A program made the position numbers and the translations under genes. 64,000 bases of DNA from NCBI RefSeq assembly GCF_032118995.1, contig NC_092656.1, forward strand, positions 8,747,761 through 8,811,760. The letters are read 5' to 3'. The notes under the pieces were generated by a model. That model was not told the DNA's origin. It worked only from the letters and a program-made list of their open reading frames with translations, and did no database searches. The DNA comes from Asterias amurensis (Eukaryota; Echinodermata; Asteroidea; Forcipulatida; Asteriidae). Shown one piece after another: positions 39,603 to 62,343 of this stretch (positions are counted from its first letter, which is position 1; each line of letters starts with the position of its first letter).

Positions 39603-40932
39603 TTAGGCATAGTCAAGAGTCACTTCAATATCACGACCTTCCATTCGACAACCACTCATCTCTCCTGTTTAGCGGGAAAAATCAGGTTAAGGAAAATAAC
39701 TGCTTCAGTAAAAGTGCAAAGATTTTAGACAACTTTGAGTGTCCCACAAAAATTGAAGGGGGAACGGGTGTACATACCTGCCAACTGAGAAAGTGTTATT
39801 CCCTCTTTGCTAATTTATTTTCCATCTTCAGGTTTGAATTAGGAAATGATTTGTAAAATGAAAGCAATAAATCTGAGTGTTTTTTTTTGCATTATTGTTG
39901 AGTTACCGATCTATACTTTGGTCAAAAGTTCCTGTCTTTGGAGCGCTACATGGCAGCAGACTTGACTTAACAGGTAAACTTTTGTTCAACTGGTTGTCAA
40001 ATCAATCAGGTTGTAAAATCAATCAAGGCCCTCGTGGCTTTGCAACTGGACTTGGGCACGTGTTCTCCCATTCCAGTCGCTTGGGAACACGGCTCTTTGA
40101 AGTTGTCCAAGCCACAAATGCCTTGACAAAAGGCTAGCATCATTCAAGATCATGTCCAAGCATGACGTAAACAAGGAAGGCATGGATTTACAGTACGATT
40201 ATAAAAGGATACGGATTGCCTTTTGTGCATCTTCAGGGTTCTGGAACCTGACAGTCCCATAACCCTTGGACCTGCCACTCTCGGCGTGGGTCTTGATCTC
40301 AGCAAACTGCACTGGACCTGTGGAGCAAAGCGTAAAACATGTTCTTCATTAGGTCATGTCACTCCACACAATCACATTAAGACTTAGATTAAGAATGGAA
40401 TGCCTGACCAGGTGATAAGCAATTATTTTTTTAGGACAGACATCCCTCAGTCCTGAATCATTCATTTTGGCAAAGAGAACACAGAAGGATTTGGGAGGGT
40501 AATGATTAATTCAAGGCGTGTGAGTGAGCCTTTAAAAACAAAGCAGAAACACTACATGATATAGGAATGATTGTGTAATGTCAAGTGAGCATGCGTCACG
40601 AATTTACCCTGGTCGATTAAGGAAACCCCATTAATCCAGTATGTAGGCTTATCACACATTATCATAGTTTAACATTATTGTTGCCATCTTAAATAAGGCA
40701 TGCTAAACTTATAAGGGAATTAAAAGAACGAAGAAGAAAAAAAGAGAAAAAAAACACAGGACAAAAACAAAACAGAAATTAAAAAATTCGATATCAATAA
40801 AAAAGCAAATATCTCACAGGCCTATACTTAGATTTGATAAGGCGTCTGTTTGGACTCCCAAGATTTAAATTTCAACTTACCGATCAACTTGAAACGATCC
40901 TTCAGATCCTGCCAGGAGTACTTGAACGGCAA
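39603..40932 (-). CDS. HNRNPM: Gene A exons 13-15: RRM3 and C-terminus
   Basis: Exon 13 (40932-40881) encodes LPFKYSWQDLKDRFKLI. Exon 14 (40317-40213) encodes GPVQFAEIKTHAES and RNP1 RSKGYGTVRF, ending QKAI. Exon 15 (39664-39603) encodes REMSGCRMEGRDIEVTLDYA-stop, parallel to the human end NGMKLSGREIDVRIDRNA. Exon 15 was located by the U12 branch site next to its acceptor (CTAAACAG) and by phase. Confidence 0.88.
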
Positions 40933-43900
40933 CTGTAGTTATAGACAACAAACACAAAGGCACTGTGAGTAAATTGTGCCTAAATACAAAGGTCAATAAC
41001 CCTTGGGAAAGCTTAACAACAGGAAAAACAATCATATAAACTTATAAAGCGCACAAAGATCATGAAGTGCTCATGGCTCTAAATTATTACTAATACCATA
41101 CACATGTATAATAATCAAAATGGAAACATAAACGATGATGTGGACAAGTTGGAATTATGGTGAAGAAATTACGTAAAGCTTTGAATATTATTGCCTACCA
41201 ATCTTTCTAGCTAACATTGGATAAATGTACATGATTCAACAATTGTTTTTTGTGCCTTCAGCCCTCAGTCATTCACTTTAAAAAAAGAGGATACAGGTTT
41301 TTTGGAGGGCAAGGAATGAGCTCTAGAAATACAGTCTAAAAAATGCCTAGCTCAGTTGTCATAATTGTTTAGGCCTACGAATAAAGACTATCAATACTAT
41401 GTCATAGGCCTGTATGGTAAAAAATATGCAGACAGACGAATGGGAAAACTGCACAACAGCTAAGAGCAAGTTCAAGTGAGGCACTATAGTCGACTAAAGT
41501 CGACCATTGGTTGATTTTGCCTGGTACCCAGGATGTATTGAATGCATAGGTAACGATGGAATATTGACCAGTGGTTGACAAATGGTCGCCCTCCGAACTT
41601 GCTCTAAATTGGCCATGTGCATAAACTGTCTCAAAGCCAGACACATCTACACACACAGCATTGGTATACGTATAATACCATCAACAGATGCTTGATATGT
41701 ACATACGTACAACAGATTGCTAGCAATAGACTGTGCAAGTCTCGCGCAGATTTGAACTTCCGGGACCATTGTGGTCCCAACCTTATGGAGTTTTACGTTG
41801 GGGAAATTTTGTTTCGTCCATTACTTTAGTTTGATATAGTTTATGACCATAAAAATGACATATGTTGTTAAAAATGTAATACTAATTAACAACATATATA
41901 AAAGTAAAAAATAAAGTCAACATAATAACGAAGAAAACCCGATATTTAAACTTGACCTCAGGTCAGATTACTTATAAAAAATTAAGAATTTGAGCCCATC
42001 TCCGATCACAAAACTTACGCAGACGCTTGTTTTGGCCGCGTGGGGTGGAAAGTCTTTTCATTGGTCGCTTAGGCGTCGGCTTCCTCTTTAAACTGCGTCA
42101 CCCGTTTATCTTACGCCCTTGCGACCATCGTGCGTCCGCGTATAAACCAGCTTCACATTCGGGCGTAGATTTACAAAAGGGGTTTCAAAACATTTAAGAT
42201 CAAACAAACATCCTTGTCCCAGAGTTTTACTTTTGTCTATACATATAGACTTTAACCGATAATTGTGTATTAATTTAAAAAGCTAAAACTAATTTAAACA
42301 AGCTCTAATGGGTATTCGGCATTAAGAAAAAATTACAGCAAAGATTTGATTCATAAAAAAATTAAGTTCTTCAGTTGTCGTGTTTTCTCGCTCCGGTGCG
42401 CGCGAGACTTGCACAGTCTATAAGGAAGCATGGACTCTAACCAAGTTACAAAAGCCAGTGGACGTCACACCTTATAGGGCATCGTAATTCTTTTCTAGTG
42501 TGATGGTGCGTGCATATAAAAAATTGGTTTCAGTTCATAATTCTATTTACAACCACAGGTATGCAATGATCGTTACAGCAGTGCTTCCTACACATGTCAC
42601 CTTAAATTCACTTTTGCCTTTAACAACAAATATTTCCAAACATGAATTGGTTAAATCAACAAACAAAATATAACACAATTTCATTCCACAGTTAAAGCAC
42701 CGAACAAAAACAATGTTACACATACAAATTTAGATGTAATAATAAACAAGAGTAGGAAAAATGGATTAAACGCATAACATGTATGTTGAATAAAGTAAGA
42801 TAAAAATGGAAATTTACTTCATTAGAATTTCAACGAAAGGCGGAAAAAAATCAGGGAAATCTTCTTGAAAGAAACTGTGTAAAACAACAGATATGAATAG
42901 ATTTGCTCAAAACAAAAGACTTACATTTCTGACGAAGACTTGACATCCCTGTTCAACACCACTACGTCCACGGTTGTCCCTATCCCTGTCTCTACCCCCT
43001 CCCCCTCCTCCTCCTCTTCGGTCCCGATCCCCACGGTCTCTGCCACCCCTGTCCCCCCTGTCTCGGTCATCCCTCATGTTACCCAGGCTATCCCCGTAGT
43101 TGTCCTTCCCACCGCTGAGCATGCCCATGTTGGAGCCCATCAGCCCCTGTCCGGAGCCTCCGTATCCCCCAGAGTTGCCCATGTTGCCCATGGAGGACAG
43201 GTCTGATCCCATACCCAGAGAGGATAGACCACCCATGTTGAGGGAGTTCTGAGAGAGGTCACCGCCAAATCCTAAAAATGAATTCATAAGAAAAAAATCT
43301 TGAATGATAAAAAGAAGAGCCTTTCAATGAAACATGTTTTATAAAAAACATTATTAACATAAAATTTGGTTTTTTACAAAATGGAGAACCATGTAAAAAA
43401 AAAAAAAGAAAAAAAAAAGTAAAACCAACAACACAATATCACAATGTATTTTGCTCAGAGTGCTGGGCATTACAAAGTGAGTCCTGGGGTGGATTTCACA
43501 AAGAGTTTAATAAGACAAGTCTTATCTTGAGTTTCTTGTTTCTTGTCGTAACTTAGGACTAGCCTTAAGTTTTTAATATCAGCCAAGCATTGCCCACCAA
43601 TGGCTACAACACTGAAATGAATCTTACCTCCCATACTGCCTAGCCCACCTCCTAGTCCGCCACCGAGCCCACTACCCAGATTCCCACCGAGTCCAGATCC
43701 GAGGCTGTTACCGAATCCACTTCCACTGCCTCCAAGCCCACTCATCCTGTTGCTGTCCAAGCCTCCAAGACCTCCACCGCCGAGGTTGGATCCGAGGTTA
43801 CCAAGTCCTCCCAAGCTGCTCCCAAGACCTTCAAAGTTGGCGAAAAGAGATTATTGATACAATTTAAGTTGAATCTTTTGATGCTGCTTCAAAACAAACA

Positions 43901-46900
43901 AACAAGAACTTTCAGATATAATAATACAGCATTTGTAAGGCTCACTTTCCTGTACACCACTTGAAGGCGCAGGTGTATTAGAACTTAAGTTAGAGTATTG
44001 TCAAATTGGTTGGAACGTAAGCATGAGCAAGTGTGTTTTAAGTTTCTGATGATAGAGAGTGATGTTGTGTATTCGTGTGAGGTCTTCAGGAAGTGAAATT
44101 TAGAGTCTTGGTGCTATGTTGAAAGGCCCTGTCCCCATAACTGGCTAACAAAGTGTGAGGAACATGAAGCGTATTGCCGATATATTTCAGGGCGGGTCCT
44201 GTTGCATGGAGTGTCAAGGGATTTTGTATGTGACACTCTAGGGCAGATGTCTAACCACTAGACCAATGAGCTTAGAGGCAGTTTAAATACCATATTTTAG
44301 CAGTGGTACAATGAACTGTTTTCCAAAAAAAAAAAAAAGAGTTCAACCGAAACAATTTTATTTATCTAAAAAATAAATTGTCAGAAGTCTGATATTTACA
44401 TGAGTAGCCCTCACGTGTTTGATGTTTCAAGCCATTGAGGGAAAAATCTTACACGCTATAAAGTGCCACTTACCACCAAGGTTTCCCATGTTTCCTAGAT
44501 TTCCCAGGCCCATGTTGCCCATTCCGATGTTGCCCAGTCCACCTAGTCCACCACTCAGCCCTCCTCCCATTCCTCCTCCTCCGCCCCCCTCCTCCTCCTC
44601 TACCACCAGACCCGCCTCCCATACCACCACTGCCTCCGAATCCACTGGTCAGATTCTCAAGACTGGGGCCAAGCTGGCTTAGACCACCTAAACAGGGGAA
44701 AAAAAAACGGTTGAGATAAAAGACTGTATTGAATACGACGTCACGCGGCTCAAATATCTGACCTACAAGATGGCGTCTGTGCGTGTGCGTGCATGTGCCG
44801 TAGAAATCAAACCGGGAATGTTGCGTGCTGCGTGCTTCGATGATGTACCATTCGCATTTGGCTGGCATACGGTTTGCCCTACAAGATGGCGACTTTTCAT
44901 AGCGAACGGGGGTTATTCAATACGGTCTATAGCAGAGGTGTGATTTGAGAGAGAAAAACTGAGATAATAGCAGAGGTGTGGTTGGAAGAAAAAAGGTTGA
45001 GATAACAGAAGGTGTGAAACTGGGAATGGACCCTTCCCATGAAATATGTAAATTGCACATAGAGTGCGCACTTACATTTTGGTTGGCAAAACGAGGGAAC
45101 GTCGCGCTGTTTTGTACACAGCTAACTGCATGACGCAGATGCGATCGCGGGTCTGCTTAGTGCACAACTCTATGGAGTTTGCCAACCAATAGGGTCTATA
45201 CGCATGCGTGAATGTAATTAGCATATTTCAATGAAAGGGTCCATTGTCTCCTCTTTCTTAAAGTCTAAACGAAGATCACTACATATCTAAGAGGACTCTC
45301 TAGACTGGTATGATAATTTTTGCTCTTGGGGTAAAAGTAGGAACATTTTGATGAGTCGAGGCGGAATGTGGCTGGCCCACATGTAAAAATGGTATAGGCT
45401 TTTAAAGGACATTTTCAGGATATTTAAAAACACATTTTGCAGATTTTTATGAGAAAAAAAAAGAAAAGGAAATCTGACTTAAGTTGAGAGAATATCATGC
45501 CTGTCTAGACAGCTACAAACAGAGAACTAAGAATAGAGACAATTGATACATTTTGATGGGAGTTAGAAGGCATCTGATACATGTGTTAAAAATTGTGAAA
45601 TCAGTAAAACATCTTGACAACTTGAACGCCTGCAATTTGAAATATCCATGAATAATTACCACATTCGAACCCACAGTCCCATGACTTAACCAAAAGAACT
45701 TAAATATGACGCTCTAAACCACTCAGCCATGACAACCTAGGATAGCTTGGACAACAATCATAAAAATCACTTCCTATGAAACCCTTGAGGTATAGAGAGC
45801 GACAACTTACTTGGAAGAGGTTGCTGCTTCTGGGGTCGGTCTCTATCTCTCTTGGCTTGATCCTACATAAAAAAAAATAAAGAAACAATTGTTTAGAGAT
45901 GCATACAGTGGTCTCGATATAATCCAAGCTTGGCCTGTTTCGTAATTTGGCGGCTATGGCTTGAACGCCGCGTCATCATGTGTTGAAGTATAGACTGTCC
46001 TTAGCAACAACCTTAGAAACAGCCATTGCCAATGGTCACCAACTTGGATACAGCCCAAGTCAAGCATCTGTGCTAGACCCCCCCCCCTAATCCAGATTCT
46101 CTGATGATTGGTGAAAGAAATTCAATTCTATTATCTATTATCTATTAAATTCAATTCTGTTGAAAATTTCTAATTTTTTTACGAATCCTGTGCAATGGGT
46201 TTACTGCAAACCAGTAATTAAAATAATTTTTGGTGGCGACTAGTTTCTGTTTTAAAGCAAGGTGTTTCTGTTCTGTGTTGTAAGCAGATTTGTGAAGCCA
46301 GTAGGGGAGAGTGGGGGGGGGGGGGCAGGAAAATGAGCAGTTTACATTTGTGCCTTCCAAATTGAGATTTAAAACTTACCATTCTGACGGCAAGTTTCCT
46401 GGTGTAGAGCATCTGCCCATCAAACATGGCTATTTCAAAAGGGTTAAGGAAATCTAATAAAAGTCCAAACCTATGGGATAAACAAATCCAAAATTCCACA
46501 AAACAAATGCAAAATTCTACAAAACTGCATTCCTGGTCAGGATTGAAACTTTGCGAAGGGCAGCCCAGCAATTGCTGTAGGGTAATTCGAGGTCTGATAT
46601 TTCTTACAAGATCAATTCATGTAAATAACGGTTAAACTATCAGTAAAATAAAGGATACAGATGGCATTGACAGCTTCCACAATGGATTCGAATGTAACAG
46701 TGGCACTGCCTTTACTCTTTCCTTTGTTGTCCATCAAGACGTCAGCGTGTGTGACCTCTCCGGCAAGATGGAAGATGTCCTTCAGTTTTCTCCAGTCTAC
46801 ATCGTATGGAATCTGAAACAATGGCGGTAAAAACAGTCATTTCATACAACAATAACAAAGACATTTGTAAAGCGCCTGGTGCAAAACAGTCATTTCATAC

Positions 46901-49900
46901 AATAATAACTAGTTCTTATATAGCGCATTTCACAATAACATATCAATGCACTTAACATTAGTGCCCTGGTCTCTCTCATAAAGGCATGCATAATACTTTG
47001 TCCTTGGGTGAAAACAATAAGAGCTGCCAACATTTGCATCTTGCAATCAGGGAGATTTTGTACAACAATCAGGCAGATATTCAGAATTACATTCGTCATA
47101 TTTCCATATGGGAGATTTTCAAATTTTTCCATCATTACATGGAAAGATTGGTCTTTTAACTCAATTTTCAGGGATCTTTCTGCAGAATTTTTGCAAAGGC
47201 TAAACACCAGAAAAAAGACTTCCTACATGCCTGTAAAGGACAGCGATGGAAAGGCAAGGAAAGGTAAATAAAGCCTCTGTAGGAAAACTTACATTAGACA
47301 CAAAGATGGTGTCACTGACTGTGTTGGGGTCCAGGTTGAGCTGGGTAAGCACCTGGGGTGTCAGTAACATACGCGCCTTCTGCTCCTTGTCAGCCTGCCG
47401 CCTGTACTTGTCACTGTACCGCCGGTCCTGGTCCTAGGCATTCAAATGGGAATATGTAGGCATGGGTAATTTATACTTAGTTGAAGGTAACAAAAGCCAT
47501 ACTTTACAAATATTGGTCTATCAGATGTACTGTTTGTTTGTTTGTTTGTTTGTTTGTTTGTTTGTTTGGATATCCTCCAGTCAATGGAACTCTGCAAATT
47601 CCCACAAGGGGGTATAAACACCAAGCTGGCGACAGCCAATCTCTCTCATACAAACATTGTTTAACGTCTGTTGAATTGCATAAATCAAGAAGTTGTGATT
47701 GAAACTTACGATTTTCACAACCAGCCCACGTCCTCTGATCTGGAATTTGTTCATCTTGTCCATGCACCTGTCCACGTTTTCCTTTGAGGCAAATTCAACA
47801 ACACTGTGGAGATAACAAGAAAGGAACAATTCATAATAAAAAAAATAACGGTTCATAAAAAAAACTGACATCCACAGACTTTGGTATGAAGTCATGAGCT
47901 GTTAAAACATGCAGATTCCAACTACACGTCTAAAAGTTTGAGTTTCTGATACCTGAAGGACAAAAAATATTTATGATACTTATCATAATAATTTTCATAT
48001 TTGCAAGAGTTACAAATGAGACTTACCCAACTCCCTGCAGACATTCCGTAGACCAATATGAAAGGAAAAAGGGAAAACAAAAAGAGCAAATGTTTAGCCA
48101 AATTTATCGCCACTTCAGGTCAACAATGTTTTAATTTAGTACTTTTAGGAATCAGGCATGACATTTGGCCACTAGAATTTTTTTTTAGAAATACAAGGGC
48201 TGACAAACATGTGGTATAGGACTTCATAGACTACCAGTCAAATATTCAAGTACAACGTGAGTGAATGGGCCCTCTCAACTAACCTTGCCCCTGGGCATCA
48301 CAAGCCTTAGCTACACCCTAGGGCGCCACACCACTGGGTTCACTGGAACAAGGCCAACTTAAAAACACTGGCTTTGTGGATACAATCTGAGACCATTCAA
48401 ACCACACCATGAGTTCCAAGAAGTTTCAACAAAAAAAGTTACAACAGGTGGTTTCTCAAGATGTGTGACCTTCTAATGGAGAGGTTTTGACTTGGAAAGG
48501 TAAGTAACTTGATTGTGGATTAGGCTGGATGAAGTAGTTTTACTTTGAAAGGAAAGTGACTTGATTGTGAATTGGCTGAATCAAGAAGTTTTACTTCAAA
48601 AGGAAAGTAACTTGTTTGTGAGATGGAATACAAAGCAAGAAGGCTACAGTTACCTTTGATCTGTTCTCTGTATCAAAAAACAGCTCTGTGTATGTGACCT
48701 CACCCACTGAAACGAGAGAGAGAGAAACAAAATGATTAAAAATGCAACTTGAGAACTTTAAAGGCAGTGGACACTATTGGTAATTACTCAAAATAATTAT
48801 TATCATAAAACCTTACTTGGTAACAAGTAATGGGGAGAGGTTGATAGTACCGGTATAAAACATTGTAAGAAACTGCTCCCTCTGAAGTGACATAGTTTTC
48901 GAGAAAGAAGTAATTTTCATCGAATTTGATTTCGAGACCTCAGATTTAGAATTTGAGGTCTCGAAGTCAAGCATCTGAAAGCGCACAACTTCGTGTGACA
49001 AGGGTGTTTTTTCTTTCATAATTATCTCACAACTCCGACGACCAGTCAAGCTTAAATTTTCACAGGTTTGTTATTTTATGCATATGTTGAGATACACCAA
49101 GTGAGAAGACTGGTCTTTGACAATTACCAAGTGTCCAGTGTCTTTAAGAAGAGAAGGGCTACAAAAAACTTAGTTTTGTGATGCAGTTATTTTCCATGTA
49201 TCGAGTATTATTAAACAAGGAAAACTGACGAAAGTCCTTATTAAAAGGGATGTAAAAATTACAAGTCTCAAATCTCATGTTAAATCTGTGTAAGCCATTA
49301 TATCTGATATCGCCCAAAGTTAATTTTGTAAACCATGTGAGAAAGAGCAACGTTCAAGATCTGCAAGTGCAGTCCTCATGTGCAGTCAACAGAATTAAAC
49401 AATTCTGACAGGTGGACACCAGTCATAAAAAAACCCAGGTTTTGCCAAGTTTTGGGAAAGGCCCCAGGGCCCAACTTTCACAGCACTGCTTAGCAGCCAA
49501 TTTTGTGCTTACTCTGCGATTTCCATTTCACCACAGCGCTGCTAACCGCACACAAATAAGCCTGTCACATTTCCAGTGCTTTACTGCACAAAAATAAATG
49601 ACGTCACAATGCAAATCCATGGTGAACGCGCAATACGGCCACTAGATTTCCTGCTAACCTGTGAAATACGCTTACACCTTAGCAAATTTTTCTGCCACAG
49701 TTAGGCACAAAAGTTTGCTTAGAATTAAGCATCAGGTTGAAATTGAGCCTAGGGTTCAACTCACCTTCTTTCCTCATGATATCTTTAAGTTCTTGCCATT
49801 TAATCTCAAACGGAATGTTACTGACAAAGACGGACCGGCAGACTGTCTTGTCTCGTCCACCACCCCCGTCACGATCCCGGCCCCCGTATGGGTGGAACCT

Positions 49901-51124: not shown

Positions 51125-51325
51125 GTCTCACAGAATAGTGGTGTCTTCAGAAGCTTCAAAATTGAGATAAAAGGAGTGAAAAACAGAGAAGACTTTTCTG
51201 TAAATTTTGTGCGGCGCGTGGTTAAAAATACACATGCGGCCGACGCGCTGGCTAGTTTTTAAATAAAATGGCGTGCGTGTTTTATATTCGTGGCTTAAAT
51301 TCACAACCATCCATGTGATATGAAT

Positions 51326-51390
51326 TTTTTATGAATAAACAATAGTTGTAATGTGACATTTATGAATAAACAATAGTTGTAATGTGACGT
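51326..51390. repeat. 34-bp tandem duplication near gene A promoter
   Basis: Two copies of TTATGAATAAACAATAGTTG plus 14 bp, differing at about one base, roughly 200 bp upstream of the gene A ATG. Confidence 0.9.
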
Positions 51391-52745
51391 ATTCCACTAA
51401 GCCGCGCCCACCCCCTCCACGACGCGTGTGGTTCGGTTTTTACCAAGAGTGGTTTTACTCGGGTCCTCATTATTTCTTACTTTTCTTACCCTTGTGCCTA
51501 CTTGATGATGCACAATAAATGATATGTCTGTTAATTTGGTTAGACTCTTCAAATTAAAGAAGCAGAGCAGTTTGGATAGTATAGAAGTTCACACGTCATG
51601 ATCAGTTTTGACTGAGGACATTTTACTTTGAAATAGCCAGCTACTGCGCTGCCGGGCCACTCATGGAAAAATAAAACACTTTCTATCCCGTAAAATTTTA
51701 ATATAAGAAGCGTACCATGGGCCTGTGTGGACTTCGCCAAGACTTTCGGATATATCTATAAAAATACTGCGATCTGTTGAAACCAAATATACATGAGTTA
51801 GTTTCTACATTAATAAATGATTGAAATATTTGAAGGGTTCCCAAAACGATCCCCATTTTTTAATAGGCTTTTAAATACTTTAAGGGGGCGGTAAAACCAT
51901 AGACGTAGAGTAAAACCGACTTGGTGATTCTTTTCCCAAAAGTTTTGGGCTGTTGCAGAGAGTACCACAAAGATAAAAGATAAGGCAGGAGAAAGGGGAA
52001 CAGTCGGATTATACATGTAGTACTTTTGTCCATACTCTGAAAATAAGTAGTCCATAGAGACTCAAACCCCACCCACTCAAGAAGTCATCACCTTATAAAT
52101 ATTCATACCACATCAATAGCTGTGAATTTCAGTTTTTAACAACGAATATCGGGGGACGGTCAATATCCTTCTTCCTGAGCTAAGTCCACACGAAAGTCTG
52201 TGGGTGCTGGGGGCCGGGTGGAACGAGGTTGAAACTTAATGCTTCGCTGTGTTTTAGTGGTTGGGACAAAAACACGGAGTGGAATATCGATGTTCAGCAG
52301 TTATTTGGCCCATTGATTTGAAGAATAACATTACGGGGAAGGGTGAGATTTAATTATGCTTAGATTTCTCGTTTTGGTAGCAGAAAAGACTTCTTGTGGT
52401 GGGTTGGTTAAGATCAAGTGTGGTGGGAAGAAAATTTCTCCGATTGGTTGGTGGAGAGGGGGTCAGAGGCGGGGGCGGGGTTGGGCTGGGGGCGGGGTTG
52501 GGCTGGGGGCGGGGGGGGGGTCACTCCTACCTAGAACCATAGAGCAAGGAAGATCTCTTCCTTGTTATATGCTAGAACTATGAGGTTCGTTCCGCTATCT
52601 CGAAAGGCGGGGTTGGGCTAGAATTATTAGGTTTGTTCCGTTTTTAACGATAGCAGAATGAACCATAGTTCTACTCTAGTTTGTAAGAGGGGGGGGGGGG
52701 GGTTACTCCTAGGTTTTTTTTTTAGTCATAGGAGTAGATGGGGAA

Positions 52746-52868
52746 AAGTTTCCGTATGGCGCCACCACTTTTTAATTCGATATGAAATAATTTAGTATCT
52801 AATTTACCTCAATGAGATATCCTTTTTTGTAAAAATGAGTGAAAAAGTGGTGGCGCCATACGGAAAGT
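52746..52868. mobile_element. Hairpin MITE (TTCCGTATGGCGCCACCAC ends), copy 2
   Basis: Arms TTTCCGTATGGCGCCACCAC and its complement pair almost perfectly. It lies between the divergent A and B genes. Confidence 0.82.
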
Positions 52869-53069
52869 TATCCGTAGATGGGGGGGGGGAGGGGTTACTG
52901 CTGTAGCGGGGCTGGGAGAAATTTGTGGGGGCACTTCAAAAGTTAAACCCAGGGCTCCCCCCTTGCTTGATTGACTTGTCTTGGTTATTTTACTTGACTG
53001 CTGCAAGACCTGATGAAGCTTATCTTTCTTGATTGAGCATAGTTGCTCCCTCCTTGTTTACGTACCATA

Positions 53070-53245
53070 ATAAGCCTATTCGCTATTGCAGCTGCGCATG
53101 TCCGTCACTGCTGACAACGCAATTTGTTTATCTCCCGTGACCTTTTGACAATAAACCCGGGTATTGTCAAAAGGTCACGGGAGATAAACAAATTGCGTTG
53201 TCAGCAGTCAGACATGCGCAGTTGTAATAGTGAATCGGCTTATTA
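53070..53245. repeat. Long near-perfect palindrome upstream of gene B
   Basis: Arms of about 75 bp (CTGCGCATGTCCGTCACTGC...TTTTGACAATA and complement) around an 8-bp centre, AACCCGGG. About 500 bp upstream of the gene B start codon. Confidence 0.88.
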
Positions 53246-53422
53246 GTTTGTCCGTAAGCTCGATCGTTTATAAAATGTTACTTTGACATACTGCTCTAGC
53301 AATGCATAGGTCTCGGGTTAAGTGATTTGTCTGTGGACTTTTATTCACAGAACTAATGAAATTGAGTATGGTTGCAATGATCGTAACCCTTGATCCTCCC
53401 GATGGCAGGAGGATCAAGGGTC

Positions 53423-53645
53423 AGGGGTCGAAATTAAGTGTATTTCCATGGTAGTCAGCAGGGCTAGTGACCAATAATTTTATGTTATGTCTCGCGTCAC
53501 GGCTCAAACTTTACAATACACCAATAACATAGTTCTTTATTGTTTGTGATGATGATTTTTGCATTATTTTTCCACTAGCCCGTCGGGCTATCAAACTGGA
53601 AAAATGAGTAGCCTGGCTGTAAATCTGGTAGTCCCGGGCTAGCGG
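53423..53645. mobile_element. TIR element family M4, copy 2
   Basis: Opposite orientation to 2135-2413. The end after GGGCTAGCGGG is clipped, and it stops about 90 bp before the gene B coding exon 1. Confidence 0.75.
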
Positions 53646-53738
53646 GAGTGTGTTTAATACACATCAGTTTAAGGATAAAGCAAATTGTATCAATATTATC
53701 TTTAATTCAGGGTTCTTCTTTTTGTTTTAAATAGCAAA

Positions 53739-55692
53739 ATGGAGGGATATGATGGCAATGAGTATGAGGACAATCAGCCATCCGCAATGGAGGAGACATG
53801 TGAAGACACAGGCAGAAATAATACCAATGGAAAGAAGGGGTAATACTTATCAGATTTTGTTTGCAAGTTTGTTCAGTCTACACATTCTGTACTTATTCTG
53901 AAAACATATTCTGAAGATCATGGCATTATGTGGCCAAAGCAGTCTATAGTGGGCTGATTGGACTCAAGTTTCTGGTGGCCAAGGTCATTGTGGTCTGGGT
54001 TTGAATCCCGGTCTTGACACTAAGTGTACATGTAATTGAGTTTCTCTGCACTCAAGGATTAACTTGGTTTGTTTGTTTGTTTGAATGATCTTCCCATCAA
54101 GGGAACTCGGCAAACTCCCACAAGGGATATAGGCCCAAACACCAAGCTGGCAACAGCCAATCTCTCTCACAAATATTGGTAACGTCTATGGTTATGAATA
54201 GTACAAATCAAGAAACTGTGATTCATTAACTAGACAACAATTTTTATTCTAGTCATTGTGAAATCGGCGGTTAGCTGGGGGATTCGAACCCACAACCTTG
54301 TAATTGCAAGTCCTGCAGTCTAACCACTTGACCACGGCAACTTTAGGTTCGTGTGAGGACAGAGACGGTTCTTACAATAGTAGGCATTGTACCCACGGTA
54401 TCCCACAGCAATTATAATTCTAACTCTAAAATATTTCTTATTATTTTGTTACAGCTCTTATGAAAACGTGCCCAGAATGGGTCTGCAAGGCAAGAGGTCT
54501 CGTATTAGATTTCAACCCTACAAAGGGCTCGGCACGAGAACGTACAAGAACTCTGTCTTTGTAAGCAACATTGCATATGAGTTGACTGAGAAGCAATTCA
54601 AAGAGCTCTTTGAAGATAAAGGTATGCTCTTAAAGGGACATTATAAGCATGATTTCCAGTACCTTCTGTTCCATATTGTATATCAAAGTGTGGAACGATA
54701 TGTGCATGCAATAGGCACGCTACCTGATGGAATGTCCGGGTGGATTACACGTCAGCCGTCCAACTGACTGGAAATTTGTTTAGAGTGCTCCAAATTTGCT
54801 CTGTATGTCAACAAAAATTGCTTAGTCCAGAACAAGTTTGTGAGTTAACATAACATCTGACAAGGAGTTGCTAATTGTAGACCGTATGATGAGATGTTCC
54901 AAAAATCCTGCGTGTGTGCTTGAGCATAAACCAAATTTATTGATGTTTAACCATAACTAATCACTGTTTGTTTTCTTATATCAATATTTCCTTGCAGTTG
55001 GAAAAGTGAGCTTTTGTGAAATCTTTCCTGAGCCAGATGGACTTTCAACGGTAACTATATATTATTTTGATTTCAAAACTCACTTGTTTAAATCTACATT
55101 TTTATAACAAATTGTTGTGTTATGTCATAATTGTGTTTAACATGCTTTAATGAACCTAGAGGCTCTTGTTTTGTTAAATGCACTATGTAACACAATTCAT
55201 TTAAACATTTTGAGGTCGTTCGATCCCCAAAATGCTAGCATGTATCAATGTTACTGTTTATGAATTATTAGGAATCATTGTAATCGTTTCTGGTTTTTTT
55301 TTTTTTCTCTTCATAATGACTGGCTGTCCAATTCACTCATGGAATTGGGAAATCTTGATGCATTTCACAGGGGTGTGGGTGAGTAAAAAAAGTTCTTTGT
55401 TTAGCCACTTAATAATGAAAATAATTTATTGATTTAAATTGTGCCCCTGTAAACAAGCGCAAAATTATCAAGAAAATATTTGGCGCCACTCTAGAGCACC
55501 TGTTAGAACCAGGTAGGTGTAAGACAGTTGAAAACTATAAGTGTTGTTGTGAACGCACTAGATTTGACTTTACCGTTTTTGTGGTTGTTTTGTGACAGGT
55601 GTGTCGAGTTCGAAAATGAAGAAGACGTTGAGAAATCAACGATTGTGCTAAAGAAATTCCAGGTGCAAGGCAGGGGTCTCATCGTCAGGGAT
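53739..55692 (+). CDS. Gene B exons 1-5: short N-terminus and RRM1
   Basis: Exon 1 encodes MEGYDGNEYEDNQPSAMEE and an acidic/Asn-rich head. Exon 2 ends with KNSVFVSNIAYELTEKQFKE. Exon 3 encodes VGKVSFCEIFPEPDGLST. The 8-nt exon gives Gly-Cys-Gly and exon 5 CVEFENEEDVEKSTIVL, then GRGLIVRD. RNP1 therefore reads LSTGCGCVEF; human HNRNPM has KGCGVVEF here. The basic residues of A's RNP1 (RSK) are replaced by LST. Confidence 0.9.
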
Positions 55693-58600
55693 GTGAGTGG
55701 CATTTCTAAGATTTTGTTCCTAATTTAATCTTTGAAGGAACACGTTGCCTTGGATCGGTCGAGTTGGTCTTTAAAAAGCGTTTGTAACCGTTTTTAATAA
55801 TATGCATATAGGTAGAAAGATGTTGTAAAAGTAGAATACAATGATCCATACAAACACGCCTCGAAATTGCACGGTTTTCCTTTTACCTCATCGACTAACA
55901 TGATCGGCCATTTATGGGAGTCAAATTTTTGACTCCCATATTATGGGAGTCAAAAATTTGACTCGCATAAATGGCCGACCGTTTTAGTTCGCAAAGTAAA
56001 AGGAAAACCCTGCAATTTTGAGGCAAATTTTTGTGGGTCATTGTATTCTACTTTTAAAACATCTTTCCAACCATATGCATTTTATACCAAATGGTTATAA
56101 ACGCTTTTTATAGACCAACTCGCGAGATCCAAGGCAACGTGTTCCTTTAAAGTCTTCCTTGAAAATTGTAACGCAGATGCCATGGCCTCGATCAGTTACC
56201 CCTGTCTTGGTCTTGGTGCCCCTTCAAAAGTGTCCCATAGACTGAAACATTTTCCAATGGAAGTGCCCTTTGCAAAATGAAAATGACCTTGCCCTCTTTC
56301 CACGTCTTTTACCGAAAGGTTAGAATTTTTGTTTCAGACCACATAGTGTCAGTGATGAATCTCACCTCTATTAAGAAATGATTTAATTTACCTTTAGAAG
56401 GAGATTAGAGGGTTGAGTTAAAAATCCCATATTAATAATAATTGGATGCATGTTTTTATTCCCAATTGTAGGATAGAGATTTGACATTTAGTTCACGGTA
56501 CAGACCACAAGTAGCCTACAACCAACAACAACAATATCAACAACCACCCTCCTCGATCGTCAACCCCCAAGTCCTTCATGGACTCGGTATTCAAAACGAT
56601 GAAGTATCCGAAACCATCTTCATAGCTAAGGTAAGGCTGTGTCCCAATTGGCGGCTACGACTTTGACTTGATCACCAACAAACAAGCGTTGACACCCTTA
56701 GCAACAGCCATACATGAAAACTTGCACAGTCGCAATTTCATAAAGTCAGTAATCACAAAAAAACTGGCTCAGCACGGAAAAGTCTTGCTTAGCGGAACCA
56801 GATTACCAACCAAAATTACATCAAGTTTACATTGTTGCAACTGGTGCAATAGCTCAACAAAAAAATAGCATAGGGAGACTGCCAGCATAAGGCTAGATAG
56901 CTCGGTTGGTAGAGTGCGGCACACATCAATACAGAGGTTGGTGATTCATATCCCACTCTAGTAAAATTGCAATCACAAGGTTGTGGGTTTGAATTCTCCA
57001 GCTCACATTTCACAATGACTAGAATAGATATTCACAATGACTAGAATAGATATTGTCGTCTTGTTGCTCAATCACAATTTCTTGATTTGGGCAATTCATA
57101 ACCATAGACCTTAAACCAATGTTTGTATGAGAGAGATTTGCTCTTGCCAGCTTGGCGCTTACATGTATAACCCCCTGTGGGAGTTTGCCGAGTTCCCTTG
57201 ATGGGAAGATAATCTGAACAAACAAACAAACAAACATTGACCAATCACAACCCTGGCCCGAAGGTTGACAGGTCTGTTTGCTGTGACGTTTATCGTTTCT
57301 TCAAAATTTCTCTGACTCTTTTCCATTCCATGTTTCTATTTCCTCCCCAGCTTGCTGATGAGGTGGATCTGCGGAAGTTGAAGGACGTCTTCTCCTTGGC
57401 TGGTTTGGTCATGAACTGCGACATCTTAATAGATAATGAAGGGTTGAGTATCGGCCTGGCAACCGTCACTTTCTCCTCTTGTGAGGAGGCGGTCAATGCT
57501 GTCTGTATCCTTGAGTTACGTCTTAACCATTTATTAGGCCAGTGGGTCCAAATTCATAGAGCTGCTTAAACCATAGAGCTATATATATTGACTAGAGTGC
57601 TAACTTGCTCTGTGTTTTGAAGCCACCCTGGGCGCAGACATGTTTGATGTGTTGCATGACTACGGAACGATTTTAATTTTAGGAGAACACACATTGCCGC
57701 AATTTTTTTGTCATTCGGCGTTTGCGCTTACATCTGCGACTGCCCATTCGCGTACGTCCACGCTACGAAAACCAAAGTTGATAAATGAACAATGTTAGCA
57801 ATGTCCGGGCGCTTTGTGATGATTTTACAGAAAAAGGAGGTTCTCTAAAGGGTTCAATCTTTTATCTTAGAGATCTTTTCCTTAAATGTTTGCTTTGCAG
57901 CTATGTTTGACAACCAACCTCTCTTCGATCAGAAAATGACTGTCCGAATGGTATGTTAGTGTGGTGTAGACTGTGCCTACACTTTCGTATTACACTACAG
58001 TGACGTCCTGGATATCGGGGCATTTTGGGGGCAGAATTTAATTAGAGCCTCATAACTCAAATCTTACCTGCAAGAAGCCACTAATTTCAACAGATTCACA
58101 TTCCATAGCAGCATACATTTTTCTGGGGTGGGTTTTGGTCGTCAAATGTCCCTCACGAATCCGTCATTTTCGTGAAATAATGCAGCTCCCAACATCAGGA
58201 AATTCCTGTTTTGATCGTATTCTCACAGTCTGCCGTTAACACTTAGTTAGTAGTCAAGATAGAATTACATGTGTTTGTTTGTTTGTTTTGTTACACGCGA
58301 ATGTACGCGTACGCACGGCAGCAGACAACACTGGATTTCGATCAAAACAGGAATTTCTTTGTCTCATTATTGTTGTTTTAGGTTTTGTCTTCATAGCCAA
58401 TGTTGAGACACTGCAGTTCCTCCTTGTTGCCTGAAGGAAATCAGGCCTTCACACTCTTTTGTGGATGTAATATTATGAGTTACATTAAACTTATAGAAGT
58501 AATTGCACCAAAATATACAATTTGACCAATACTATTGTTAAATTTGATTGTTTTCTATATTAATTTGTTTGTTTTGTGAAGAATAAGATCAAGAAGCCAC

Positions 58601-61600
58601 AGGATTCTGTCAGCAGACCGCCCACTGAACTCCCACGTATGTATCCATTTATCTCTTATTCACGCTCAAGAAATTTTATAAATTTGGGATGGGGGCTGGA
58701 CATTCTTTTCAGTCAAGCAATTGTTCAAATTATTTTGTTAACAAAAGGAAATTCATGTGAAAGTTATATGTTGTTGTGCCATTACATAGTTATTTGGTTT
58801 GCGGTAACACCATGTTTGTACTATCTACTTGCCAGGTAGATTCTGTTTTTTGAGACATTGACTACCGCAAAGTAGATTTTTCGGGATTTGGAAGCCCCTG
58901 AAAAGAACTATCCTGCTTTTTAACTACTACCTGGGCGGAAGGTAGAATATCGTCCATGACAACTACTAATTTAGCTTTAGTGAAATGACGGGACTTCTCA
59001 TAATAAACTTCACTGCAGAGTGAGTTCTTAATTGGTCTCAAGGTCTCGACAAGTTTGCTCTAGTCATCGTCAGGATCTACCTTATTGAAAAAAAAAAAGA
59101 TTTCAAAGCCCAATGAATTATCTTTAACATTGTTATTGGTGTCAAGTTTCAAAGCCCAATGAATTATCTTTAACATTGTTCTTGGTGTCTTTTCTCCAGA
59201 GGGACTTGGGTCCATCGGAGCAAACCTTCTGGCTAGAGAGGGTACGGCTGCAGGAGGGGATCGGCCATTGAACAGTCTAATGGGAGATGGGGCAATGGGT
59301 GGGGCTCTGGGCATTGCCAGCATGTATGGCAACAGAGTGCCTGACTATAACAGGGGAGGAGGGCACGGTTTCGACAGACCATACATGCCATACGGAGGTG
59401 AGAAACATTTAGAGAAAACTATTTGACTATTAAAATGCACTGGACACTTTTGGTAATTACTCAAATTAATTATTAACATGAAACCTTGCTTTGTAATGAG
59501 TAATGGAAAGCTGTTGATAGTATGAAACATTGTGAGAAACAGCTCCCTCTGAAGTAACGTAGTTTTCGAGAACGAAGTAATTTCTCAATAAAATAATTTA
59601 ATTTGATTCGAGACCTCGAAATCAATCATCTGAAAGCACACAACTTGTGCAACAAGGGTCATTTTCTTCCATTATTCTCTCGCAACTCCGACGACTAATT
59701 GGGCTCAACATTTCACAGGTTTGATATTTTATGCACAGTTGAGATACAGCAAGTGAGAAGTCACAAAGCTAAGGTTTCTTTGCTATGTAAAATGTTGTCG
59801 ACTACAGCGAAATTGTTGCTGGACTACAAGCCTAAACGAGTGATTGTAGCGTAAGGGCCCATAAACTCATGACCAGACAAACCTGGTGGTGTTGTGTTTT
59901 TCAATTGAGTAATAATTCTTCTATTTCGAGTGGTGTTCTCGCTCAATGATGTTACAGCTGAGTTGCCCCCAGATCTCCCTGTCCCTCATGCATGTAGATA
60001 TTTCCCCAGCTGGCTATAATGGCCCCATATTAAACATGAATAATTTTTGTTGATTTTATCGCCCATGATGACTTTGAAAAAAAGGGATTTGTTGCCCAAA
60101 CTCGTGATAAAGACTAGTCTTAACTCTTTGTGAAACCCATCCATGAAATTTATCAGTGAGCCGGATTGCCACGAACAACAGAGGATATGACATGACCCCT
60201 GACACAGGTTACCCGGCGGACGCTAGGGGGGGCTTCGGCGGAGGTCCCATGAGGGGATATGATGCTCACAGAGAATCTCAACAACCCTCGGCAGATGGAC
60301 GGACACAGGTGTTTGTCAGAAATGTAAGTTGATTCCCCTCCAGCAGCCAATTTCACAAAAATTTACGCAACTGCATAAGTCCACTTGCGCAACGCTTATG
60401 GCGCAACTGTAAACGTTGCGCAAGTGGACTTATGCAGTTGTGTAAAGTTTCTTGAAATCGGTGCTTGTCATCTTATTTCACTGACACTTTGCGATTATTG
60501 TGAAAACAAGATTCAATCGCTAAACTTATAATAATAATGACTAGTTCTTATATAGCGCATTCCACAATAATGTCTCAACCCACCTTACATTAGTGCCCTG
60601 GTCATTTGGCCAATACCATTCTTTTATTTTTTTTAGCTCCCTGGGGAGTATACTGCCCTGAGCTTACATGACGCTCCAGTGGCTTTTTCATATACAATAT
60701 CAACCTCCACCCTCGCAGGTACCCATGTACCCCTGGGTGAAGAGAAGCAAGTAAAGTATCTTGCTCAAGGACACAAGTGTCATGACAAGGATTCCAACCC
60801 ACACTCCGATGAATATAGCCACCAGAACTTGAATTTGATGCTCTAAACTAATCTGACATGACAACCTATTTGAAATTCACAATAAGACAAAAGCTCAGGT
60901 ATACAGATGCTGTTGCTATGGACATCGAGGTGCTTCCAACTGATACTCTTAATGAAACCCTTTGGAGACCGTTCATTTCTGCAGTGATTTTTTAAGCAAT
61001 AGTATGTGCTTACAGGGACACGTTGCCTTGGATCGGGCGAGTTGGTCTATGAAAAGTGTTTTTATAAACTATTGCAGTACCCATTTGCTGGTCATGCCAT
61101 TAGGGAGGGAAGCTATAGGTTGATAATTCACCAACTTTCATCCCATTTTTTTTCTTCAGCTGTCTTCAGATCTCACTTGGGAGGAACTGAAGGATTCATT
61201 TAAGAAAGTCGGTGAGTGAAGTCAAAATATAAATGTTGTGGTTAATAAAGTATTATTTGTTTAGGATTATTTCCTTGTTTCAAGATTCAGTTTGTTTTCT
61301 TAAACCCTTTTCTTAAATTTTTTTCTGAAAGATTGGAAGTAGAAATAGGGGAAGACAAAAGCTCAGGTGTACAGATGCTGTTGCTATGGACATCGAGGTG
61401 CTTCCAACTGATACTCTTAATGAAACCCTTTGGAGACCGTTCATTTCTGCAGTGATTTTTTAAGCAATAGTATGTGCTTACAGGGACGCGTTTCCTTGTT
61501 TCAAGATTCAGTTTGTTTTCTTAAACCCTTTTCTTAAATTTTTTTCTGAAAGATTGGAAGTAGAAATAGGGGAAGACAAAAGCTCAGGTGTACAGATGCT

Positions 61601-62343
61601 GTTGCTATGGACATCGAGGTGCTTCCAACTGATACTCTTAATGAAACCCTTTGGAGACCGTTCATTTCTGCAGTGATTTTTTAAGCAATAGTATGTGCTT
61701 ACAGGGACACGTTGCCTTGGATCAGGCGAGTTGGTCTATGAAAAGTGTTTGAAAACGTTTGTTATCAAAAAGAAATATGGTTGGAAACATGTTTTTAAAG
61801 TAGAATATAATGATCCACACAAATATGCCTCGAAATTGCACGTTTTTTGCCAACTAACACGGTCGGCCATTTTGTGGACTCAAAAATTTGACTCCATAAA
61901 ATGGCGTGCCGTTTTGGTTAACGCTGTAGAAGGCATTGTGTCCCTTTAAGCAGCTCTATGAAATTGGGACTTGGTAACCGCAGATAATGAAACTAGATGG
62001 TATTCTTTCCTCTGCTTTGTAGGACCGGTTTACTTTGCTGAAATTAAGAAAGATAGCGATGGCACCTCAAGATGCATCGGCACAGTCAAGTTCTTTAACC
62101 CTCTCCATGCCCAGCAAGCCATTTGTATCCTTTAAAAGATTTGGCACTAATTTCTTTAAGAAATATTAATTTTGCGGGGGGTATAAAGAATATTATTTCA
62201 AGCCCGGTGGCTAGAGGAAGGGTTTGAGTTTGAATTTCACGCTTGTTCTCCTTGACCAGATTTTGTTCTTCTGTCTTCCAGTGTTACTGAATGGAAGTGT
62301 CCTGAAGGGGCGACGTATTGGAGTCACTATGGGTCGGTTCTAA
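53739..62343 (+). CDS. Gene B: diverged hnRNP M-like paralog, 14 coding exons, 473 aa
   Basis: Exons: 53739-53839, 54455-54621, 54998-55050, 55371-55378, 55599-55692, 56472-56630, 57351-57504, 57901-57950, 58582-58636, 59200-59397, 60157-60323, 61160-61211, 62023-62124, 62282-62343. Phases agree throughout. RRM1 is about 66-141, RRM2 about 187-262, a short Gly/Met/Tyr linker 263-395, and RRM3 about 396-473 (C-terminus GRRIGVTMGRF). Exon lengths 53, 8, 94, 154, 50, 52 and 62 are identical to gene A. It lacks A's acidic head, Arg-Asp stretch and long Gly-rich linker. RNP2 of RRM1 and RRM3 is intact (VFVSNI, VFVRNL), but the RNP1 motifs are eroded. The ATG lies 4 nt after an acceptor (TTAAATAG), so at least one upstream 5' UTR exon exists. 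Confidence 0.9.
54063..54345 (-). mobile_element. SINE family B, full copy in gene B intron 1
   Basis: The tail (TTTG)n is at 54069 and the tRNA-like head, B box GGGTTCGAATCCC and TGGTCAAGTGGTTAGACTGC, reads on the minus strand at 54345-54280. Confidence 0.82.
55371..55378 (+). CDS. Gene B exon 4: 8-nt microexon in RNP1 of RRM1
   Basis: GGGTGTGG is flanked by TTTCACAG and GTGAGT, is found in the right interval, and restores phase between exon 3 (ending T107) and exon 5. It encodes Gly-Cys-Gly at the same RNP1 position as the gene A microexon. Introns on either side are 320 and 220 bp. Confidence 0.9.
55732..56153. mobile_element. Palindromic element family M2, copy 2, in gene B intron 5
   Basis: Complete, with a doubled centre (GACTCCCATATTATGGGAGTC inserted beside GTCAAAAATTTGAC). 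Confidence 0.85.
56472..57950 (+). CDS. Gene B exons 6-8: Gln-rich linker and RRM2
   Basis: Exon 6 encodes DRDLTFSSRYRPQVAY, a Gln-rich patch (NQQQQYQQPP) and RNP2 TIFIAK. Exon 7 encodes LADEVDLRKLKDVFSLAGLV, then GLSIGLATVTF at the RNP1 site, where A has KSKGSATVTF, and ends NAV. Exon 8 encodes SMFDNQPLFDQKMTVRM. The exon 7/8 intron is U12-type. Intron 6 (56631-57350) is nearly filled by SINE sequence. Confidence 0.88.
56885..57236 (+). mobile_element. SINE A head followed by SINE B, in gene B intron 6
   Basis: GGCTAGATAGCTCGGTTGGTAG (family A head, 56890) runs to CCCACTCTAGT, then a family B body ends with (AAAC)n at 57218-57236. The B head is mostly replaced by the A head, which may be a chimera or a nested insertion. 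Confidence 0.7.
57505..57900 (+). other. U12-type intron in RRM2 of gene B (396 bp)
   Basis: Donor T|GTATCCTTGA; branch-like TTTTCCTTAAAT about 13 nt before the acceptor GCTTTGCAG. Phase 1, splitting Ser after AV. The last base of the branch consensus is A instead of C. Orthologous in position to the gene A RRM2 intron. Confidence 0.9.
58582..60323 (+). CDS. Gene B exons 9-11: shortened linker and RNP2 of RRM3
   Basis: Exon 9 encodes NKIKKPQDSVSRPPTELP. Exon 10 (59200-59397) encodes GLGSIGANLLAREG, MGDGAMGGALGIASMYG and an RGGGHGFDRPYMPYG tail. Exon 11 (60157-60323) is Gly/Tyr/Arg-rich and ends GRTQVFVRN. The linker is about 133 aa against about 264 in gene A, but it is still Gly/Met-biased. 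A 50-bp tandem duplication abuts the exon 10 acceptor. Confidence 0.87.
59067..59199 (+). repeat. ~50-bp tandem duplication at the gene B exon 10 acceptor
   Basis: TTTCAAAGCCCAATGAATTA... occurs at about 59100 and 59149. The second copy continues into TCTTTTCTCCAG, the real acceptor; the first lacks the AG. Confidence 0.85.
59432..59760. mobile_element. MITE family M1, copy 11 (right-truncated)
   Basis: In gene B intron 10. The left end is variant (AAATGCACTGGACACTTTTG) and the right end stops after AGTGAGAAG. Confidence 0.8.
60337..60456. mobile_element. Hairpin element in gene B intron 11
   Basis: Arms ACGCAACTGCATAAGTCCAC...GCGCAACG and complement pair over about 33 bp, between CCAATTTCACAAA / TTTCTTGAAATCGG ends. 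It starts 14 bp after the exon 11 donor. Confidence 0.82.
60535..60870 (-). mobile_element. SINE family D, minus copy in gene B intron 11
   Basis: Read on the minus strand: head with TTGTCATGTCAGATTAG, CACTTGTGTCCTTGAGCAAG, CCAGGGGTACATGGGTACC, ending TGCGCTATATAAGAACTAG, the usual end of family D. Confidence 0.75.
60888..61948. repeat. Three direct repeats straddling gene B exon 12, joined to M2 fragments
   Basis: A roughly 130-bp block (AAGCTCAGG...GTGCTTACAGGGAC) occurs at about 60890-61020, 61357-61486 and 61580-61708. Copies 2 and 3 form a 223-bp tandem. Copies 1 and 3 run straight into an M2 element head (ACACGTTGCCTTGGATC). Exon 12 (61160-61211) lies between copies 1 and 2. Confidence 0.88.
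61160..62343 (+). CDS. Gene B exons 12-14: RRM3 and C-terminus
   Basis: Exon 12 encodes LSSDLTWEELKDSFKKV. Exon 13 encodes GPVYFAEIKKDSDG and RNP1-like TSRCIGTVKF, ending QQAI. Exon 14 encodes LLNGSVLKGRRIGVTMGRF-stop (TAA 62341-62343). GPV-FAEIK is identical in gene A, the clearest local sign that A and B are sisters. Confidence 0.9.
62125..62281 (+). other. U12-type intron in RRM3 of gene B (157 bp)
   Basis: Donor T|GTATCCTTTA, a perfect minor-class donor. The best branch candidate is TCTCCTTGAC, about 26 nt before CTTCCAG, somewhat far and followed by a pyrimidine-rich tract. Phase 1 after AI, as in gene A RRM3. It may be drifting towards U2-type use. Confidence 0.85.

Follow-up and report, generated by a model that had tools for sequence, protein, structure and literature searches.

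Minor-spliceosome introns are recognized through U11 and U6atac, which act on the GTATCCTT donor, and through U12 snRNA, which base-pairs with a TTCCTTAAC-like branch site. In the hnRNP M/MYEF2 family, the available text of PMC10853781 mentions "the U12-type intron" of human HNRNPM in the singular, and that of PMC5063418 calls intron 8 of mouse Myef2 U12-dependent. The premise of the original prediction for the locus described here, that such introns are usually single in a gene, holds with a qualification: according to the accessible part of PMC6717393, human and mouse each have 50 genes with two minor introns and 3 with three. The minor-intron density of the starfish Asterias rubens is similar to that of vertebrates (PMC10639083, text as available).

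We analyzed a 64,000-nucleotide stretch of Asterias amurensis contig NC_092656.1 (the window), in which two hnRNP M/MYEF2-like genes stand head to head, gene A on the minus strand and gene B on the plus strand (Table 1). The best annotated matches of both are hnRNP M or MYEF2-like proteins: those of gene A are "myelin expression factor 2-like" proteins of Acanthaster and Patiria, and gene B is identical at 463 of 473 residues to "heterogeneous nuclear ribonucleoprotein M-like" (P0121) of A. rubens. Translation, Pfam and alignment give both genes the layout of the family, with two N-terminal RRMs and one C-terminal RRM; exon 10 of gene A has a one-base frame break (region 44474-44687) in the present assembly. 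Only RRM models, and no PF11532, were found by Pfam in the scanned parts of the two genes. Among the listed relatives, PF11532, the N-terminal stretch of hnRNP M, is confined to some rows from fish and sharks and is absent from starfish and from most MYEF2-named rows; it is too patchy there to define the wider family. Solved human hnRNP M RRMs match RRM2 and RRM3 of gene A in sequence and are uninformative on introns. Of the 31 long ORFs in the window, eight that lie outside genes A and B were also run through Pfam; seven gave no match and the eighth a match with E = 0.07, far under its cut-off.

Table 1. Features of the two hnRNP M/MYEF2-like genes. Intron class is assigned from splice-site sequence; fractions are matches to the U12 consensus.
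Feature	Position	Length	Strand	Description
Gene A, MYEF2/hnRNP M-like	39603..51124		-	15 exons, three RRMs; exon models and translation, Pfam RRM_1
Gene A exon 4	48027..48034	8 nt	-	Microexon within RRM1
Gene A intron 6, U2-type	46813..47292		-	RRM2 beta 1 end, phase 0; site common to RRM3
Gene A intron 7 (A7), U12-type GT-AG	46658-46430	229 nt	-	RRM2 helix 2 end, phase 1; donor GTATCCTTT 9/9
A7 branch site	46443..46451		-	TTCCTTAAC 9/9, 14 nt before exon
Gene A intron 12, U2-type	40933..42924		-	RRM3 beta 1 end, phase 0 within domain; site common to RRM2
Gene A intron 14 (A14), U12-type GT-AG	40212-39665	548 nt	-	RRM3 helix 2 end, phase 1; donor GTATCCTTT 9/9
A14 branch site	39686..39694		-	TTCCTTAAC 9/9, 22 nt before exon
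Gene B, hnRNP M-like	53739..62343		+	14 exons, 473 codons, three RRMs
Gene B exon 4	55371..55378	8 nt	+	Microexon within RRM1, position matching gene A exon 4
Gene B intron 6, U2-type	56631..57350		+	RRM2 beta 1 end, phase 0
Gene B intron 7 (B7), U12-type GT-AG	57505-57900	396 nt	+	RRM2 helix 2 end, phase 1; donor GTATCCTTG 8/9
B7 branch site	57878..57886		+	TTCCTTAAA 8/9, 15 nt before exon
Gene B intron 11, U2-type	60324..61159		+	RRM3 beta 1 end, phase 0
Gene B intron 13 (B13), U12-type GT-AG	62125-62281	157 nt	+	RRM3 helix 2 end, phase 1; donor GTATCCTTT 9/9
B13 branch site	62248..62256		+	CTCCTTGAC 8/9, 26 nt before exon

All 27 introns of the two genes were scored against the known U12-type donor (RTATCCTTT) and branch site (TTCCTTRAC) consensus strings and against the U2-type donor consensus. 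Four introns, A7, A14, B7 and B13, separate cleanly from the other 23 and are confirmed as U12-type at the level of splice-site sequence. Their donors match the U12 consensus at 9, 9, 8 and 9 of 9 positions, respectively, against at most 7/9 in the remainder, and the U2 consensus at 3/9, against 5–9/9. Two of their branch sites match fully and two at 8/9; the top branch-like match elsewhere is 7/9. The donors named in the original prediction (46658, 40212, 57505 and 62125) all coincide exactly with exon ends in the gene models. Its statement that U12 branch sites are present also stands, although it counted three and here all four introns have one matching at no fewer than eight positions, and its consensus strings agree with the available text of PMC2831892. 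B13 has the weakest 3′ end of the four, with a long branch-to-exon distance and a pyrimidine-rich sequence (0.88).

A donor match of 8/9 is reached by 16 of 7,640 GT sites on both strands, and the chance of at least four such donors among 27 introns is P = 3e-7. Scanning the whole window for donor–branch pairs independently of gene models returned eight pairs, including all four introns; 60 resampled windows gave 2.5 pairs on average and never more than 7. This selectivity is too low, and the scan was rejected as stand-alone evidence. The weight of the U12 case comes from the coincidence of donors with exon ends and not from the blind scan. Retention of any of the four introns leads to a stop codon after 3–21 codons, and the annotated starfish proteins P0121, P0001, P0002 and P0005, which are taken to be predictions, continue across the junctions as modelled. 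We infer that splicing follows the models.

The residues preceding the introns are NAI (RRM2) and KAI (RRM3) in gene A, and NAV (RRM2) and QAI (RRM3) in gene B. All four introns occupy a single alignment column (60) in the same phase, as had been claimed from their placement after the AI/AV of helix 2. RRM1 lacks an intron there. The U2-type site where beta 1 ends (column 7) is likewise present in RRM2 and RRM3 of both genes, and in each gene these two domains have two of three intron sites in common (P = 0.0003 under random placement). This second shared site independently supports the reading that the introns were duplicated with the domain. A phase 0 site at the end of beta 4 is common to RRM1 and RRM2, and sites common among all three RRMs number three in total (P = 0.0007); an additional RRM1/RRM3 site is offset by one column owing to a one-codon gap at the junction. 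Between genes A and B every RRM intron position is common, including those flanking the microexon.

Trees of the RRMs of 24 bilaterian proteins (24, 24 and 23 rows for RRM1, RRM2 and RRM3) recovered each domain as a single group, with support of 100/98 for RRM1, 100/97 for RRM2 and a moderate 82/87 for RRM3, which held together in 84% of 200 bootstrap trees. The RRMs of genes A and B each fall with their same-numbered counterparts from annotated hnRNP M/MYEF2 proteins. Because the three domains group separately across bilaterian proteins, the split between them is older than Bilateria. With the RRMs concatenated, the starfish A and B genes join with support 100, and the RRM2 tree agrees in placing the gene B domain with that of gene A; RRM1 and RRM3 of gene B are not placed with those of gene A in the single-RRM trees, and in the RRM3 tree the 20 other RRM3 rows exclude that of gene B with support 43. 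Most simply, the A/B duplication is starfish-specific.

Deeper relationships were addressed with fungal RRMs included. In an AU test of the RRM pairings, RRM2+RRM3 had p = 0.27 and the two alternatives had 0.29 and 0.32. In the best trees RRMs 1–3 of Basidiobolus join animal RRM2 (support 92; 96/81 in a second tree) and its RRM4 joins animal RRM3 (93/40). The AU test does not reject trees that unite the four Basidiobolus RRMs in one clade (p = 0.25), and a pre-fungal RRM2/RRM3 split is therefore a lead only. A look for the intron in other genomes gave five bacterial MAG loci with an RRM-like match and no match in viral contigs.

These data probably reflect the descent of one U12-type intron, copied with an RRM segment before Bilateria and then with the gene on the starfish line. 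An ancestral RRM-coding segment would have held a single U12-type intron at the end of helix 2, and copying of this segment with its introns before the bilaterian ancestor would have given RRM2 and RRM3. Much later, a whole-gene duplication on the starfish line would have produced the head-to-head pair, each member retaining both introns. Judged by their splice sites, all four introns are predicted to be removed by the minor spliceosome, and each mature mRNA would require two such events. The order of events in the original prediction, an RRM duplicated with its U12 intron and the gene later with both, is thus supported by the shared U2-type site, by the RRM introns common to both genes and by the trees. 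U12 intron gain is very rare, with at most one case in eighteen metazoan genomes (PMC2831892, text as available), and we infer descent rather than repeated gain. Several observations count against this history: RRM1 is without the intron, support for the RRM3 group is moderate, the single-RRM trees are partly discordant, and the AU test shows no preference for the RRM2+RRM3 pairing. The single U12 intron described for human HNRNPM also indicates that the RRM2/RRM3 pair is not universal; the human RRM3 intron could have been lost or converted, or else the second intron was acquired on the starfish side.

One way to accommodate the human gene is that the position is common by descent and the class is not, one U2-type intron having become U12-type later, on the echinoderm line. 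The singular intron of HNRNPM (available text of PMC10853781) fits this, and one such conversion is documented in flies; however, U12-to-U2 is the usual course, and 87 of nearly 1,000 U12 clusters contain both classes, presumed conversions (PMC2831892, in the part available). A 9/9 donor in both A14 and B13 is also a lot for chance to assemble, and we regard this conversion as unlikely. The contrast of one U12 intron in vertebrates with two in starfish would also follow from a later transfer, in which gene conversion or unequal crossing-over in an ancestor of starfish or of echinoderms copied a stretch of RRM2, intron included, onto RRM3. This is highly improbable, since gene A's RRM3, to either side of the intron, resembles and groups with RRM3 from other animals, and such a transfer would have had to carry the beta 1 intron as well. 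By eye, the aligned sequence is RRM3-like both before and after the intron, which speaks against a recent copy from RRM2.

That U12 introns were inserted twice, independently, at one proto-splice site common to RRM2 and RRM3 is barely credible, even though the A-I/V preceding the intron is conserved and Physarum has undergone a burst of minor-intron gain (PMC10639083, text as available): U12 gain is almost unknown in animals (available text of PMC2831892), column and phase agree exactly, and the two domains also have the U2-type site in common. As for the splicing machinery, at least one intron, most likely B13, could be spliced by the major spliceosome or by both. The pyrimidine-rich 3′ end of B13 and its distant 8/9 branch site are compatible with this, and sites serving both machineries are reported (PMC10853781, in the text available), but all four donors match the U2 consensus poorly, with C at +5, and we consider it quite unlikely.

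Returning to descent of one intron, we see an even chance that the RRMs of hnRNP M come from one intron-rich exon set with a U12 intron that predates Bilateria, its class being kept in two copies; the origin of such an exon set possibly also precedes the animal/fungal split. If true, two domain copies within a single gene would each have retained the U12 class, independently, for more than half a billion years. Minor introns are usually dated across species; where paralogous domains hold a pair, the internal duplication supplies the date, with no orthologous intron required from a distant outgroup. Should some lineages have lost or converted the RRM3 intron and kept that of RRM2, the pair becomes a matched test of U12 persistence and a built-in control for class retention, with common origin, gene and expression, yet two fates: both introns kept in starfish, apparently one in vertebrates. 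A starfish hnRNP, of a protein class active in splicing, is also predicted to depend doubly on the minor spliceosome.

Human HNRNPM and mouse Myef2 thus have the gene family and intron class of the starfish genes, and differ in that the available sources mention one U12 intron per gene, against two in two domains in starfish. Intron 8 of Myef2 could be the RRM2 site (gene A intron 7) if vertebrates have one extra upstream exon; the middle exon of the mouse event is 47 nt (PMC5063418, text as available), compared with the 50-nt exon following the starfish RRM2 intron. Among other starfish, Acanthaster planci has the same two paralogs of the family (P0001 and P0005), probably on one scaffold, as both are listed on contigs of the same length (1,089,804); these, and P0121 of A. 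rubens and P0002 of Patiria miniata, of the same family, were compared at the protein level, and the relatives listed include neither a Patiria gene B nor an A. rubens gene A. The locus is not wholly new in kind, since U12 introns in HNRNPM/Myef2 are already known, as are genes that carry two of them; a matching RRM2/RRM3 pair in hnRNP M was not found in the literature searched, which left supplementary tables and most subscription journals outside. Multi-minor-intron genes of human and mouse resemble the starfish genes in having more than one U12 intron, and the accessible part of PMC6717393 yielded no statement on equivalent positions in repeated domains. A further comparison is with voltage-gated sodium and calcium channel genes: SCN and CACN1 alpha genes mostly have two U12-type introns in mammals (PMC2831892, text as available). 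Like the starfish genes, these channel genes are multi-domain and have retained two U12 introns through gene duplication, in a family different from hnRNP M. Their two introns may also occupy equivalent domain positions, as reportedly described by Wu and Krainer in 1999.

Four introns, the seventh and fourteenth of gene A (A7 and A14) and the seventh and thirteenth of gene B (B7 and B13), are set apart from the others in the models of these two hnRNP M/MYEF2-like paralogs. All 27 introns of both models were scored against the U12 donor consensus RTATCCTTT, the U12 branch site consensus TTCCTTRAC and the U2 donor consensus. Both U12 strings agree with PMC2831892. The four introns score 8/9 or 9/9 for each U12 signal (see table) and 3/9 as U2 donors, while the remaining 23 score at most 7/9 for the U12 donor, at most 7/9 for the branch site and at least 5/9 for the U2 donor, so the original prediction of four U12-type introns is correct. 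Because 16 of the 7,640 GT sites in the window score at least 8/9 as a U12 donor, the probability of such donors in four of 27 introns is 3e-7; a random pick of four of the 27 would be exactly the RRM2 and RRM3 helix 2 introns with a chance of 6e-5.

Coordinates of the two genes and of the microexons and introns compared between their RRMs
Feature	Coordinates	Strand	Details
Gene A	51124 to 39603	-	15 exons (exon models)
Gene B	53739 to 62343	+	14 exons (exon models)
A7, RRM2	46430-46658	-	donor 9/9; branch site 9/9, 14 nt from exon
A14, RRM3	39665-40212	-	donor 9/9; branch site 9/9, 22 nt from exon
B7, RRM2	57505-57900	+	donor 8/9; branch site 8/9, 15 nt from exon
B13, RRM3	62125-62281	+	donor 9/9; branch site 8/9, 26 nt from exon
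RRM1 8-nt microexon, gene A	48027-48034	-	kept in both paralogs
RRM1 8-nt microexon, gene B	55371-55378	+	kept in both paralogs
Beta 4 introns, gene A	47434-47709, 45863-46379	-	phase 0, RRM1/RRM2 site
Beta 4 introns, gene B	55693-56471, 57951-58581	+	phase 0, RRM1/RRM2 site
Helix 1 introns, gene A	48707-49764, 40318-40880	-	phase 1, RRM1/RRM3 site +/- one codon
Helix 1 introns, gene B	54622-54997, 61212-62022	+	phase 1, RRM1/RRM3 site +/- one codon

When intron positions were compared on an alignment of the six RRMs (three per gene), the U12-type introns all fell at column 60 in phase 1 in RRM2 and RRM3 of both genes, as had been claimed, and this intron is absent from RRM1 of either gene. 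RRM2 and RRM3 of both genes share a second site, a U2-type phase 0 intron where beta 1 ends (column 7), and RRM1 and RRM2 share a phase 0 site where beta 4 stops (column 77). Random placement of the same numbers of introns (200,000 draws) gave P = 0.0003 for at least two RRM2/RRM3 coincidences and P = 0.0007 for all three coincidences, under an assumption of equal likelihood for every site that is generous to the result. RRM1 and RRM3 each carry a phase 1 intron where helix 1 ends, an equal number of codons from the domain start; the two are one column apart because RRM1 has one extra codon there. Together, the beta 4 and helix 1 sites indicate that all three RRMs may derive from a single intron-rich exon set.

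Inheritance through domain duplication is the simplest account of the RRM2/RRM3 pair, since the two domains share a second site and U12 gain is rare: a survey of eighteen metazoan genomes reports at most one gain and finds that U12 introns are as a rule lost or converted to U2 (PMC2831892). Gene conversion could instead have carried the intron from RRM2 into RRM3, but this is disfavoured because RRM3 of gene A is RRM3-like on either side of it. With two sites common to RRM2 and RRM3 and positions that agree between the paralogs, the predicted domain duplication followed by gene duplication is probably right.

In a tree of RRM1 (24 rows), RRM2 (24) and RRM3 (23) sequences taken from 24 bilaterian proteins, each domain forms a group of its own (supports 100/98, 100/97 and 82/87, respectively), which indicates that RRM2 and RRM3 were already separate before the bilaterian ancestor; an intron common to both, if inherited through the duplication, would be older still. 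AU tests rejected none of the alternatives for the closest RRM pair or for fungal RRM placement (p 0.25 to 0.32). A fungal relative, P0067 of Basidiobolus meristosporus, has four RRMs, of which the fourth shows a weak grouping with RRM3 of animals; the protein is a useful outgroup for dating the split.

Within the RRMs, every intron position is the same in genes A and B, including the flanks of the RRM1 microexon. The MYEF2 model of the frog Discoglossus has a stray insertion exactly at this place, a hint that the microexon is present in vertebrates and overlooked by annotation. A concatenated-RRM tree of 24 proteins unites the A and B genes of starfish (support 100), which places their duplication later than the divergence of starfish from sea urchins and crinoids but earlier than that of Asterias and Acanthaster. 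Counting against this date, single-domain trees separate RRM1 and RRM3 of gene B from those of gene A, with low support and long gene B branches.

The genes lie head to head, each with three Pfam RRM_1 matches; PF11532, the hnRNP M N-terminal model, was unmatched in both in the Pfam scan. The gene B product shares 463 of 473 residues with Asterias rubens ‘heterogeneous nuclear ribonucleoprotein M-like’, and for gene A the top relatives, annotated as ‘myelin expression factor 2-like’, come from Acanthaster planci and Patiria miniata. These matches make a starfish very close to A. rubens the most likely source of the window. Both paralogs occur in Acanthaster, where their contigs have an identical listed length of 1,089,804 bases and are probably one scaffold. 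Exon 10 of gene A (44474-44687, minus strand) is one base off frame relative to downstream exons, with the break inside a G-rich run. An assembly error is likeliest, and a real change also in A. rubens is less probable; the best 120 matches listed in either of two gene A searches held no A. rubens ortholog.

Elsewhere in the window, a 119-bp unit containing tRNA-like sequence is present in five tandem copies (23776-24373), with full-length tRNA-model matches overlapping the end of the array (24319-24391, plus) and just outside it (23638-23710, minus); the array looks like a tRNA-derived repeat. Intron 12 of gene B holds a near-identical 221-bp tandem pair (61270-61719, 99% matches). Between the genes lies a long hairpin (53068-53245), its 47-nt arms 100% complementary and separated by 8 nt, with a further pair of 35-nt arms on the outside (89% complementary); it is perhaps a mobile-element remnant.

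Each primary transcript of either gene would require two minor-spliceosome events. Retention extends reading by 15 (A7), 4 (A14), 21 (B7) or 3 (B13) codons to an intronic stop; from sequence, RRM2 intron retention is predicted to lead to likely mRNA decay and RRM3 intron retention to loss of the end of RRM3.

Earlier papers describe ‘the U12-type intron’ of human HNRNPM, bound by ZRSR2 (PMC10853781), and call mouse Myef2 intron 8 U12-dependent (PMC5063418). The gene A RRM2 intron is intron 7 and vertebrates may have an extra upstream exon, so the starfish RRM2 intron may be the vertebrate one. PMC6717393 gives two minor introns in 50 genes and three in three genes, for human and likewise for mouse. 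A pan-eukaryotic survey of minor introns took in Asterias rubens, with a density comparable to vertebrates (PMC10639083), and may well have these introns in its tables; no report of the RRM2/RRM3 equivalence was found in the literature searched. The hnRNP M case thus adds a new example in which the kind of intron and the kind of duplication are both already known, and its chief worth is that the U12 pair is datable and testable.
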